The notes beneath the pieces were generated by a model that saw only the letters and a list, made by a program, of their open reading frames with translations, ran no database searches and was not told where the DNA came from. A DNA stretch of 64,000 bases. It comes from Chitinophagaceae bacterium. GTDB taxonomy: Bacteria > Bacteroidota > Bacteroidia > Chitinophagales > Chitinophagaceae. Below are positions 6,308-63,998 of the stretch, piece after piece. The position numbers and the translations under genes were made by a program. The stretch's first letter is position 1, and the number at the start of each line of letters is the position of its first letter. The stretch lies in the NCBI GenBank assembly GCA_947447825.1, contig CANFLL010000005.1, positions 22,995 through 86,994 of the forward strand, read 5' to 3'.

Positions 6308-7693
6308 TTACTTTAAATCGGGCATTAAAACTTCTGTTCCTTTAATAATAAACGAGAGTCTATAAAAATCCACATTCTCCGCAGCCCATGGATCCTGCAC
6401 TTTCCATTCCCTAAATGTATCATTGCTTACTAGTAGGCAGTGATTGATTTTTACGTATTGCAATATAAATATGTCTGCTTGCGTTTCCCTTGGTGATTCT
6501 AAATAGGTACAAATTTTCTTTACTTTTTCTAGAATGGTTCCATCTTCAACTTTATGTTTTAATGAAGCATCCGCAATCACTATGATGTCCGTAAATCCTT
6601 TTTCTTTCAAAAACTCAATCATCAATACAAGGTTTTGGGCATAAACCTTTTTATCTATCCTGCCCGAATTATTATGAGCCACATTGCTAGCGTCTAATAC
6701 GATAGACCGGTCTTGCATTTTGTTTATTTCAAAAAATTCACCATCAGCATGATAGTTCCCGTATTGTTTTACATGTTCACTCTTTTCCAAAAAGTTAGCA
6801 AGCAATTCTATTTCGGTTATTTCAATGGTAAACCAGGTAGGCATTTGGGCATTATCTTCATATTTGTATTCATCTATGTTTGAATGCAAAATTGTATTCA
6901 GTTTGTTGAGAGAAATCTTTTTGCCTTGTTCAATTTTCGACAAAACAATAAGCAGTACACGTTGGTCGTGCGTGATGTTTTCTTTTTTCACATACTCCAA
7001 ATCAACAAACTTTAAAAGGTCTTGTGCATCTCGCATTCCTTTCTCATTAGCTATTTTTAAGTCTTCATAGGTTCTAAAACCCCTTTTGCCAGCATCAATA
7101 AAATCTGCATGTGTAGGAAATCCTAATTCTTTTGCAGCAACAAATAAATTAGCATCAATGAATCCTTTTGCAAATGCTTCTAAAAGTTTTGTGCAATCTT
7201 CAAAGTTGTGCAACTTGGCATAACTGTATAATTGATATGGATTATTGAGTGGTGTTTCTACAATAAATGCCTTTGGCTCTTTTGCCTCTAGGTCTTTATA
7301 CAAAGTAAATCCAGAAATAAACCCTTTTTTCTTCATTAATTCGAATGTGGCCAAATCGCTAATGCCTGATTCTTTAACCAAAAGATAATCGTCGTGTTTG
7401 GTGTACCCAAGCGTTAGAGATTCATAAAATACATCGGCTGTAGGGAATCCTTTTTCTTGTGCCGTTAAATAATTCTCTAAGCTTTTAAAACCATTTGTTT
7501 TATGTAAAAGCAAACAGGCATTGTGATACAGGGCAAAAGAATCCTCTTCGGGCTGCTCACCATGAAGGATAAAAATGTTGTTTACTTGGTTGTTTTCTGC
7601 AAAACGACATAAGTCTGACAGATTCTCGAATTCTAATCGTGAAGACATTTCTGTAATTTTTACAGAATAATAATTATACTGTTCTTTTCTCAT
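6308..7693 (-). CDS. Zc3h12a-like NYN-domain ribonuclease with N-terminal helical repeats
   Basis: The last 133 residues of this 461-residue protein (from about 329) resemble the NYN/PIN-like nuclease domain of the Zc3h12a (Regnase/MCPIP) type. Matching segments are IVLDASNVAH (D334, N337), the GFTDIIVIAD strand, an acidic residue near D407, VSNDTFREW (N424, D425), and a final YRLSF...LMPDL. The metal-binding acids appear to be present. Residues about 70-240 contain degenerate repeats of roughly 20-30 residues with a G-[FY] core (EKGFPTADVF, LGYTKHDDY, KKGFISGFTLY, LGFPTHADFI, RGFRTYEDL, EKGMRDAQDL), probably helical. The target RNA is unknown. The unknown gene at 7714 ends 20 nt upstream on the same strand, suggesting a two-gene unit. 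Confidence 0.75.
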   Translation of the reverse strand: MRKEQYNYYSVKITEMSSRLEFENLSDLCRFAENNQVNNIFILHGEQPEEDSFALYHNACLLLHKTNGFKSLENYLTAQEKGFPTADVFYESLTLGYTKHDDYLLVKESGISDLATFELMKKKGFISGFTLYKDLEAKEPKAFIVETPLNNPYQLYSYAKLHNFEDCTKLLEAFAKGFIDANLFVAAKELGFPTHADFIDAGKRGFRTYEDLKIANEKGMRDAQDLLKFVDLEYVKKENITHDQRVLLIVLSKIEQGKKISLNKLNTILHSNIDEYKYEDNAQMPTWFTIEITEIELLANFLEKSEHVKQYGNYHADGEFFEINKMQDRSIVLDASNVAHNNSGRIDKKVYAQNLVLMIEFLKEKGFTDIIVIADASLKHKVEDGTILEKVKKICTYLESPRETQADIFILQYVKINHCLLVSNDTFREWKVQDPWAAENVDFYRLSFIIKGTEVLMPDLK

Positions 7694-7713
7694 GGCACTA
7701 TTTTTTTGTCTAA

Positions 7714-8835
7714 TTAATCTATGTTTATATGTTTTTTATTGGAAGATATAATCTTGTCTACAGTTTCGCTTTCTTCATCCAAGTCAATGTTTAATCCTAA
7801 AACTAATCCATCTTGCGGCGATGTAAAAAGCATTATTGGCACTGAGTAATTTGGCACTGAGTCATAATCTTTTATCAATCCTTCGTAAGTCGGTTCATCT
7901 AATACGTTCATTTCAAAATAATATTTCCAAAGAATTAAAGGAGAAATTTCGCCCATATAAATAGGTGCACTTATGCAACCTGCGGGTGTACTTTTTAGAT
8001 GTTTTATAATTTCATTTTCATCAATAGTTGCTTGTAGTCCAGCCATTGTGGGAAGCACTATGTTGATGAACTGACTATTTCCATTGGATTGATAGCAAAG
8101 AGTTGCCCATTTTTCAACTTCAGTTTTAAAAGGCGTAATTAAATTAGTGATTTGCTTTTTGATAGATGATAATTCTGTGGAGGTTAGAATATTAAGATTG
8201 GGCAAATCGAAACATTTGATAAAGTAGGGTACGTCCACTTCTATTTCCTCAATCTTTGTTACTACCCATGTTTCAAAATATTGTTCAGAATAGAACTTTT
8301 GAGGCATCAGCCAAACAGCATTGTTGGTGTTCGGTCTGGTTAATTTGTTAGTTAATAAATCTATTGGCGAAACAATTGCCATATTTTCAATAACAGACGA
8401 ATCATCGTAATGGCTTATCAAAAAATGATTGTCGCAACATAGTTCCATTAATCCATCATATCCATGCTTCGAAAGTGATAACCTGAAGCTTAATGACCAT
8501 TCTTTCAATAATTTATCAAATGCACTTTCCATCCTTTTGAAGGCCAGAAAATGACTGTTCGGTGGATGTTTTAAGGCTCTAAATGCTTTTTGATCATCTA
8601 TAAAGGATTCAATTATATCCATTATTTCAGTTTCATTACACATTCCAGAACTATAGATAAACCTAGCTTTATTTATTAGGTTTAAAGATTTTACAACGAA
8701 ATTAAAGGTGATAAAAAAGGTGCTAGAACCCACCTGACTAAACATATCACTAAGTAGATAGCCTGCTCTAATTTTATAGGCAAAGTCATATCCATTAAAA
8801 TCTTTAACGGGAAAGTCTAGTTGGATACTACGCAT
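7714..8835 (-). CDS. Protein of unknown function, possible partner of the NYN ribonuclease
   Basis: I do not recognise this 373-residue protein. It has no signal peptide and no clear membrane segment, and contains several hydrophobic and aromatic stretches (AYKIRAGYLLSDMF, FFITFNFVVKSLNL). The C-terminus is acidic (IDLDEESETVDKI). No nucleotide-binding or metal motif is evident. It starts with ATG and its stop lies 20 nt before the ATG of the NYN ribonuclease gene, so co-transcription is likely and a linked function is possible but unproven. Upstream lies an 817-bp gene-free region with a 21-bp tandem array. Confidence 0.6.
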   Translation of the reverse strand: MRSIQLDFPVKDFNGYDFAYKIRAGYLLSDMFSQVGSSTFFITFNFVVKSLNLINKARFIYSSGMCNETEIMDIIESFIDDQKAFRALKHPPNSHFLAFKRMESAFDKLLKEWSLSFRLSLSKHGYDGLMELCCDNHFLISHYDDSSVIENMAIVSPIDLLTNKLTRPNTNNAVWLMPQKFYSEQYFETWVVTKIEEIEVDVPYFIKCFDLPNLNILTSTELSSIKKQITNLITPFKTEVEKWATLCYQSNGNSQFINIVLPTMAGLQATIDENEIIKHLKSTPAGCISAPIYMGEISPLILWKYYFEMNVLDEPTYEGLIKDYDSVPNYSVPIMLFTSPQDGLVLGLNIDLDEESETVDKIISSNKKHINID

Positions 8836-9085
8836 AATATGTTTTATGCAAGTGTAGTCTTTATTACAAGGACTTTAGCTATTATTAATCATTAGTTCTT
8901 TAATAGTTTTTTTGTTTTTTAAGAAGGTAAGTAGGTTAATTGAAATATACATCACTTTATTTAAAATGTGGAAGGTAAATGAACCGCAAAGCTATTAAGC
9001 AAAGAGACTCCAAAGCGTTTGACAATTGGGCTAAGCCTTTTTACTCAAATAACGCATTGGAGTAGCCTATAAAAGTTTCATTTCC
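8836..9085. other. Gene-free spacer before the 21-bp array
   Basis: AT-rich DNA between the divergent genes at 7714 and 9653. It contains a short stretch (GAACCGCAAAGC near 8980) resembling one at 10813 (TAACCGCAAAGCC), possibly traces of a dispersed element. I see no ORF or RNA gene here. Confidence 0.4.
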
Positions 9086-9408
9086 GAGGTTTCTTTTGTC
9101 GCATCTGAGGTTTCTTTTGTCTCATCCGAGGTTTCTTTTGTTGCATTTGAGGTTTCTTTTGTCGCATTTGAGGTCTCTTTTGTCGCATTTGAGGTCTCTT
9201 TTGCCGCATCCGAGGTTTCTTTTGTCGCATCTGAGGTTTCTTTTGTTGCATTTGAGGTTTCTTTTGTCGCATTTGAGGTCTCTTTTGTCGCATTTGAGGT
9301 CTCTTTTGCCGCATCCGAGGTCTCTTTTGTCGCATCTGAGGTCTCTTTTGTTGCATCCGAGGTTTCTTTTGTTGCATCCGAGGTTTCTTTTGTCGCATCA
9401 GAGGTCTC
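9086..9408. repeat. 21-bp tandem array A1 (15 full units plus a partial unit)
   Basis: Fifteen abutting units of exactly 21 bp, each beginning GAGGT(T/C)TCTTTTG, with a 16th partial unit from 9401. Units 3-7 (9128-9232) and 8-12 (9233-9337) form a 105-bp higher-order repeat differing at one base, so the array grew recently by block duplication. Because 21 is divisible by 3, frames on both strands stay open and create the spurious ORFs in the track. The minus frame reads as heptads of the type ETSDATK. There are no spacers, so it is not a CRISPR. Confidence 0.95.
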
Positions 9409-9652
9409 GGATTGAGCCTTCAAAAGCGATTTTTGTTTAAAGAACTTGATGTGTTGGAAATGGTCTGTCTACCTATGATAAATTGAACTTTGTTTTGCCC
9501 CATGCTTACCAAATAATTGCACTCTGAAATTAGCAACCAACGCCGTCATTGTCTGGGCAAAGGAAACATCCGATATTATACGAACCTTTTATGCACCCGT
9601 AACAAATGATTTAATTAATGGTAGTAGAAACAAAAAAAGTAGTTTTGACGCT
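9409..9652. other. Spacer between array A1 and bioF
   Basis: 244 bp with no convincing gene. It ends with a candidate bioF promoter element at 9640. Nothing else is recognised. Confidence 0.4.
9640..9647 (+). promoter_or_regulatory. Candidate -7 promoter element upstream of bioF
   Basis: TAGTTTTG matches the Bacteroidota -7 consensus TAnnTTTG. It ends only 5 nt before the annotated ATG, so if it is active the transcript would be leaderless or the true start lies further in. I did not find a well-placed -33 TTG. Confidence 0.35.
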
Positions 9653-16889: not shown

Positions 16890-17060
16890 GTGTGAAATGT
16901 TTACTTCGTCTTCAATTAATATTTTCATAATGCTACCTTTTAACCACCTACCTAAGTAAGCTTTTGTGATTGATAAATATTCTATCTATTACATAATTTA
17001 GTGAAGACACTTTTGGGTGGATATAGGTTGAAAAGTCAGTCTTGAGAAACTGTTCTCCAC

Positions 17061-17322
17061 GGAGTTTACTTTAAATCCCACGGAGTTTACTTTAAACTCC
17101 AGCGAGTTTAGTTTAAATCCCACGGAGTTTAGTTTAAACTCCAACGAGTTTAGTTTAAATCCCACGGAGTTTACTTTAAATCCCTGCGAGTTTACTTTAA
17201 ACTCAACGGAGTTTAGTTTAAACTCCAGCGAGTTTATTTTAAATCCCACGGAGTTTAGTTTAAACTCCAGCGAGTTTAGTTTAAATCCCATGGAGTTTAT
17301 TTTAAATCCCATGGAGTTTAAA
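17061..17322. repeat. 21-bp tandem array A2 (12 full units plus a partial unit), near-palindromic units
   Basis: Twelve abutting 21-bp units run from 17061 to 17312, with a partial 13th. Full-strength units contain GGAGTTTAGTTTAAACTCC, an inverted repeat with 8-bp arms and a 3-nt centre. Units alternate between a GGAG...CTCC form and a CGAG...TCCC form, giving a 42-bp dimer. The minus strand stays open and produces the ORF at 16998-17312 (heptads such as EFKLNSV), which I consider spurious. Confidence 0.95.
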
Positions 17323-34888: not shown

Positions 34889-34935
34889 TGATTAACAGAT
34901 TCGGGGTGTATTATCAATAAAATAAGATTGTCAAT

Positions 34936-35259
34936 CGATACATTCAGAATTTATTCTCAATACAAACAGATTGCTAATCGATACAATCGTAATGTATTCT
35001 CAATAAAATCAGATTGTCCATCGACACATCAGAATCTATTCACAATACAAACAGATTGTCAATCGACACAATCGGAGTGTATTCTCAATACAATCAGACT
35101 GTATCTTCAATACAATCGAAGTGTATTCTCAATACAAACAGATTGTCAATCGATACAATCGGAGTGTATTCTCAATACAAACAGACTGTATCTTCAATAC
35201 AATCGAAGTGTATTCTCAATACAAACGGATTGTTTAACGACACAATCGGAGTGTATTCA
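34936..35259. repeat. 21/22-bp tandem array A3 (15 units)
   Basis: Fifteen abutting units of 21 or 22 bp. A typical unit contains CAATACAATCGGAGTGTAT, with ATACA and TGTAT as inverted arms separated by 7 nt. The block 35064-35150 is repeated with few changes as 35151-35237 (87 bp, four units). Because unit lengths mix 21 and 22, the reading frame changes along the array, so ORFs 34928-35269 and 35014-35277 are not real genes. Confidence 0.93.
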
Positions 35260-52683: not shown

Positions 52684-52856
52684 AGTTGCTTCTTTAAATC
52701 AAAAATAACAGCCTGTATGTTTCAATGTCTTTTTAATTGAAGTAATGTAATAGTGTGATTGGAAAATTAGTTAAATATTTCACCAGGTACATTCACAGAT
52801 TTCATTCTTTACACCAATCCTTAAAAGGTTCAATCAGCTCCAAAATATTCTATTTA

Positions 52857-53055
52857 GGCGGCTAGAGGTCATATTTAGGAGGCTAGAGGTAACATCTTGG
52901 GGGCTAGAGGTCATATTTTGGAGGCTAGAGGTAACATCTTGGGGGCTAGAGGTAATATCTTGGGGGCTAGAGGTCATATTTAGGAGGCTAGAGGTAACAT
53001 CTTGGGGGCTAGAGGTAATATCTTGGGGGCTAGAATTAATATTTAGGAGGCATTT
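52857..53055. repeat. 21-bp tandem array A4 (9 full units plus a partial unit)
   Basis: Nine abutting units from 52857 to 53045, each like GGGGGCTAGAGGTAATATC with a T-rich end, and a 10th that breaks off after GGAGGC. The 63-bp block 52920-52982 is repeated as 52983-53045 with a few changes in the last unit. Several units contain stop codons in the plus frames, so the array is not a gene. It lies between divergent genes, upstream of pdhB. Confidence 0.95.
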
Positions 53056-63845: not shown

Positions 63846-63998
63846 ATTTTCGCCATCTGGGAAGAATTTAGTCTGCGGCAAGCCAGATTTCCACTTTCTA
63901 AGAACAATCGAGTCCGATTCATGGTAGATTTTCGCCATCTGGGAAGAATTTAGTCTGCGGCAAGCCAGATTTCCACTTTCTAAGAACAATCGAGTCCG
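63846..63998. repeat. 71-bp direct repeat, two copies at the window edge
   Basis: Copies at 63846-63916 and 63928-63998 appear identical and begin ATTTTCGCCATCTGGGAAG; they are separated by 11 nt (82-bp period). Each contains TCTGG and CCAGA as short inverted arms. The array may continue beyond the window. The minus-strand ORF 63801-63989 merely reflects the repeat. Confidence 0.9.

Follow-up and report, generated by a model that had tools for sequence, protein, structure and literature searches.

A bacterial NYN nuclease of the Zc3h12a type and its rapidly diverging, exchangeable partner proteins

The stretch of Chitinophagaceae DNA analysed here (the window, 64,000 nucleotides) encodes a nuclease of the Zc3h12a/Regnase type and, directly upstream on the same strand, a partner protein of no recognised family. 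The gene pair is real, and the partner belongs to a family whose diversity, copy number and swapping are new here. We consider the chances about even that the two genes form a modular RNA-cutting system, in which a constant NYN RNase would serve variable sensor or adaptor partners that dock by their tails, with immunity as the likeliest purpose. In the open-access literature we found no earlier description of the partner family or of a bacterial Zc3h12a-NYN system.

Domain architecture and relatives of the nuclease

The nuclease gene (6308..7693, minus strand, stop codon included) encodes 461 amino acids and has homologues in 28 genomes. From the N to the C terminus, the AF2 model and Pfam together place a small alpha/beta domain (residues 1-65, 7499..7693), a helical-repeat region (residues 68-233, 6995..7492), a putative winged-helix-like domain (residues 242-323, 6725..6970) and a NYN nuclease domain (residues 328-459, 6317..6712), all on the minus strand.

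The nuclease belongs to PF11977 (Zc3h12a-like ribonuclease NYN): the profile matches residues 328-459 with E = 3.1e-14 and scores 53.4 bits where the cut-off is 23, and it matches 25 of 25 members of the nuclease family at E <= 0.01. An AF2 model built from 17 relatives (mean pLDDT 87.7) was compared with the PDB by Foldseek and matched the PIN domains of ZC3H12A, ZC3H12B and ZC3H12C (E 3.5e-7 to 4e-6, TM by target 0.59-0.73); KHNYN is also among the fold matches of the NYN part, and when PDB sequences are searched with a profile built from 25 members, these ZC3H12 and KHNYN chains come up again (E 1.7e-10). The preliminary description, made from the sequence alone, had assigned the C-terminal domain to this nuclease type on the strength of motifs that include DxSNVA (here DASNVA, with D334), GFTDI and VSNDT and had proposed a structure check; the motifs are as described, and the model has the PIN/NYN fold.

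Residues D334, N337, D375, D384, N424 and D425 are invariant in the alignment of 25 members and D407 is kept in 24, so the window nuclease is expected to be enzymatically active. The conserved residues that serve as a criterion for PF11977, namely the metal-binding acidic D334 and D425 (25/25) and D407 (24/25), are among them. Regnase has two adjacent aspartates, the first of which is an alanine in the window nuclease.

The repeat region consists of ten single-helix units of exactly 14 residues in two blocks of five, starting at residues 68, 82, 96, 110 and 124 and at residues 163, 177, 191, 205 and 219. Self-identity at a lag of 14 is 0.166, compared with 0.069 (sd 0.009) in column shuffles, and this periodicity, together with the AF2 model, replaces the earlier count of about six degenerate repeats. 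The following domain shows the order H-E-H-H-E-E in the AF2 model and has no match in Pfam; its designation as winged-helix-like is our own reading of the predicted secondary structure. Searches of NCBIfam, PADLOC and PHROGs with the nuclease returned nothing.

The window nuclease resembles Regnase-1/ZC3H12 and KHNYN in its NYN domain, by profile, by fold and by the DxSNVA / D / SND catalytic pattern. Unlike these proteins it is bacterial, has no CCCH zinc finger or KH domain that we could find, and adds the N-terminal 14-residue helical repeats and the winged-helix-like domain. We rejected an identity with Regnase proper, since the protein ends two residues past the PF11977 match and gives no zinc-finger match. 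PRORP is similar in that its NYN-superfamily nuclease also comes after a region of helical repeats, and was recovered by a weak profile match (E 5.5e-5, below the cut-off) and by fold matches, but the TM is only 0.22-0.26 over the whole length; this identity was also rejected, as PF16953 scores 23.3 bits against a cut-off of 39.1. The bacterial LK-nuclease (DUF88/NYN)-OST-HTH proteins likewise combine a PIN/NYN-superfamily nuclease and a winged-helix-type domain in one protein (PMC2848206). In contrast to them, the window nuclease matches neither the DUF88 nor the OST-HTH profile and has the opposite domain order, and the system adds the repeats and a separate partner gene.

Pairing and distribution of the two genes

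Relatives were collected from Chitinophagaceae metagenome-assembled genomes and from other genomes at every rank from the genus up to the phylum. Twenty-nine nuclease loci from 28 genomes were examined, and at 28 of these loci a partner lies directly upstream of the nuclease on the same strand, with a gap of -20 to 154 bp. In the window the gap is 20 bp (7694..7713, minus strand), consistent with a single transcript. The preliminary description had reported these two minus-strand reading frames of 461 and 373 codons and their spacing accurately, and the recurrence that it proposed to look for is thus borne out. The only exception is a diverged second nuclease in genome G204 (L037:200-1594), which stands without a partner and has the active-site stretch ETLVIG instead of ADIFIL, with D407 changed to E. 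The same genome carries the largest partner array. Two further nuclease genes are broken by an in-frame TAA, at different positions (L033:3281-4654 in G417 and L138:4839-6254 in G389). In G417 the partner is intact; in G389 the linked partner is truncated too, and an orphan partner (L035) is intact.

The distribution of the nuclease is patchy: it was found in 12 of 299 genomes of the family, 2 of 392 in the phylum sample and 1 of 197 in another class. The nuclease is therefore not an essential RNase P. Eight of the 149 genomes in the class sample have a PF11977 match, and all eight hits belong to the nuclease and partner system; this includes all seven further PF11977 proteins of the sample, whose architecture is identical and each of which follows a partner gene. 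In the phylum samples, nuclease and partner were each found in two genomes, and these are the same two. Ten of the 13 genomes of the genus carry both and two carry neither; the remaining one, G874 (67% complete), is the sole genome seen with partners but without the nuclease. The partner family is thus almost restricted to genomes that hold the nuclease.

The two genes could be neighbours by chance with unrelated functions. We consider this explanation very unlikely because of the co-occurrence: 28 of 29 loci are paired, in 28 genomes of several families and in differing surroundings, and the association at genome level extends to orphan partners.

A variable partner family with a constant tail

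The partner gene (7714..8835, minus strand, stop codon included) encodes 373 amino acids. The AF2 model, built from 25 relatives, has a pTM of 0.82 and a mean pLDDT of 83.9, and only the C-terminal tail is disordered (residues 349-373, 7717..7791, minus strand; pLDDT under 50). Partners are 350-410 amino acids long, with a large variable globular domain. The window partner is acidic (pI 4.9; family median 5.5), so direct RNA binding by it is not obvious. It had been described as unrecognised, and this stands: searches of Pfam, NCBIfam, PADLOC, PHROGs and PDB sequences gave nothing credible, the model has no match among PDB folds (best E 0.5), and neither Pfam nor NCBIfam connects it to a known antitoxin family. 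Membership of a known family was rejected as well for the wider group, as the hits that 49 diverse members give in Pfam and PADLOC are all weak and isolated. These include CFAP300 (E 0.003) and similar Pfam hits, each in one member of the 49, and three PADLOC hits; we judged all of them to be chance matches.

The window partner ends in the motif KKHINID (residues 367-373, 7717..7737, minus strand), which was recognised by comparing ORF ends across the family and by residue counts. The family consensus is (K/R)K-x-(I/L)-x-(I/L/V)-D; in the form (K/R)K-x-(I/L/M)-x-hydrophobic, usually with D after it, the motif stands at the end of 68 of 72 full-length partners and of 9 of 397 other ORFs. Within tandem arrays the final residues are mostly conserved and the remainder is 30-44% identical, a pattern that is least clear in the array L115. 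A stop-anchored DNA version of the pattern gave few hits on non-partner proteins, about as many as a reversed control, and a single hit in each of two genomes that lack the system, and we rejected the idea of a wider tail family on these grounds.

Four systems (in G734, G927, G962 and G889) lack the tail, and they form a single clade of the nuclease tree (support 100/100). The nucleases of this clade end differently, so that the 'MPDL' end of the nuclease is lost together with the partner tail. This co-loss hints at a connection between the two ends and is only suggestive, because it reflects a single split in the nuclease tree and because the 'MPDL' stretch may be a general NYN feature. As the clade keeps a partner without the tail, the tail cannot be the sole contact.

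Nuclease-bearing genomes have 1-15 partner matches. Of the four partners in the window genome, one is linked to the nuclease and the others are orphans, spread over three further contigs. Tandem arrays of three to nine partners occur: one in G204 (L112:1171-13879) holds about nine partner genes over 13 kb, one copy frameshifted, with almost constant tails (KKKS-I/M-D); G874 has arrays of four (L116) and three (L115); and three partners precede the nuclease in G021 (L038) and in G982 (L180, with 3-bp gaps). Orphan partners also occupy one site that is conserved across the genus, in a run of aromatic amino acid genes in the order prephenate dehydratase (pheA), partner or partners, aminotransferase and prephenate dehydrogenase (tyrA). 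Loci at this site include L119, L125, L130, L140, L142 and L144, with gene names read by us from the sequences.

Partners diverge much faster than the nuclease. Across eight genomes of one genus, the nucleases at the linked locus have a mean identity of 73% and the partners one of 40%, and gmk, beside the locus, is 80-84% identical; dN/dS is unusable in this comparison, as synonymous sites are saturated. A comparison of G048 with G873 gives 85% identity for the gene upstream of the partner and 83% for the nuclease, but only 33% for the partner between them. The G048 partner groups instead with that of G252 (57% identity, support 100/100). The trees conflict, with the partner data rejecting the nuclease clade (AU p = 2.3e-4) and the nuclease data rejecting the partner clade (AU p = 4e-18), for clades that were picked after the identities were known. 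The flanks have stayed conserved, and the partner has been exchanged between them as a cassette. The most informative feature of the system, absent from the preliminary description, is that the partners form a multigene family whose members diverge quickly and can be swapped but keep a constant tail.

The main rival to our reading is that the pair works like a toxin-antitoxin system: the nuclease would be toxic and the upstream partner its inhibitor, the disordered tail would lie over the nuclease in the way that VapB tails cover PIN toxins, and orphans would be spare antitoxins. In VapBC, a PIN-like nuclease follows a small gap, and its upstream partner has a disordered, conserved C-terminal tail. 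The window system shares both traits, and the antitoxin-first gene order, the short gap, the basic character of the conserved tail, the broken nuclease with an intact partner in G417 and the altered active-site stretch (D407 to E) of the only lone nuclease all agree with this explanation. However, the window partner is much larger than the VapBC counterpart and highly variable, several partners may stand in an array for one nuclease, and the nuclease is of the NYN Zc3h12a type, not VapC. A large variable globular domain in a partner of 350-410 amino acids would be superfluous for simple inhibition; tandem arrays of 3-9 partners occur; the partner is swapped while the nuclease stays constant, although cognate toxin-antitoxin pairs usually change jointly; and no mobile copies of the nuclease were found on phages, plasmids or viral contigs. 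We therefore regard this explanation as unlikely, if a serious one.

Proposed mechanism and genomic surroundings

In animals, NYN nucleases of the Regnase type are known to act in mRNA decay and in antiviral immunity. In the mechanism that we favour, the constant component would be a single NYN endoribonuclease of the Regnase/KHNYN type, with a probable RNA- or protein-binding scaffold made up of the helical repeats and the winged-helix-like domain. The partners would be the variable component, with a strongly differing globular part and a disordered C terminus that carries one short conserved motif. Because the nuclease is constant, the partners are variable and exchangeable, and the disordered tail is constant, we take the tail to be the putative plug and the body the specificity part: the body would most likely recognise a particular trigger or target, and the tail would engage the shared nuclease or a shared third component. 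The partner would then bring the nuclease to RNA or switch it on; more generally, it may recruit, activate or restrain the nuclease. Several partners, linked or elsewhere on the chromosome, could broaden the repertoire of a single nuclease. The likeliest purpose would be immunity inside the cell, directed at phages or other mobile elements, since the rapid divergence of the partner and its replacement as a cassette suggest an arms race and three of the four tail-less loci lie by restriction-modification or toxin-like genes.

A separate sensor with an antiviral role, ZAP, recruits KHNYN, which is of the same nuclease family (PMC6615859). The parallel is one of working and is no evidence that the partner is kin to ZAP; the two are unrelated in the searches made. 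It is possible, if rather doubtful, that the window system is a bacterial immunity of the same recruiter-plus-nuclease kind, with one Regnase-type RNase, fast-evolving exchangeable sensors of a new fold and one shared C-terminal peptide plug. If so, it would offer a model in prokaryotes for RNA destruction directed by adaptors, and specificity would be widened in a new way, by a constant effector, a short docking tail and interchangeable sensors. As every PF11977 protein found in the sampled class belongs to this system, a function would also be given to bacterial 'Zc3h12a-like' annotations.

Genes around the main-clade loci are mostly housekeeping genes, with defence-type genes making up 3 of 69 neighbours. 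In the tail-less clade, three of four loci adjoin type I restriction-modification, zeta, AbiEii, HipA or NACHT genes. The PADLOC defence models match neither the window nuclease nor the window partner, and a mobile origin of the nuclease was rejected, as no homologue was found on phages, plasmids or viral contigs. The earlier suggestion of an undescribed RNA-targeting regulatory or defence module can thus be kept as a hypothesis in so far as the pair and the NYN fold hold, but its defence part stays conjectural, with no PADLOC match, no mobile copies of the nuclease and mostly housekeeping neighbours; the look at neighbours in other genomes that it proposed gave restriction-modification and toxin-like genes in the tail-less clade only.

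These surroundings bear on another explanation, that the pair regulates the decay of the cell's own mRNA, with partners directing the nuclease to host transcripts like the adaptors of eukaryotic decay enzymes. Vertical inheritance at fixed loci within the genus, the orphan partners at the conserved site between pheA and aminotransferase/tyrA in several genomes, and the housekeeping neighbours are in its favour. We nevertheless think it rather improbable: the system is patchy (12/299 family genomes, 2/392 in the phylum), a partner that diverges and is replaced as a cassette does not look like a regulator of conserved genes, and the nuclease is broken in G417 and G389.

Tandem repeats of 21 bp near several loci were considered as a component of the system and dropped, as they are widespread in these genomes; arrays with a 21- or 42-bp period and differing sequences occur in many related genomes. 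In the window, intergenic tandem arrays with periods of 21, 42, 43, 63 or 82 bp lie at 9086-9405, 17055-17320, 34901-35258, 52851-53051 and 63846-63998, and the overlapping ORFs at 9067-9440 are tandem repeats and not genes.
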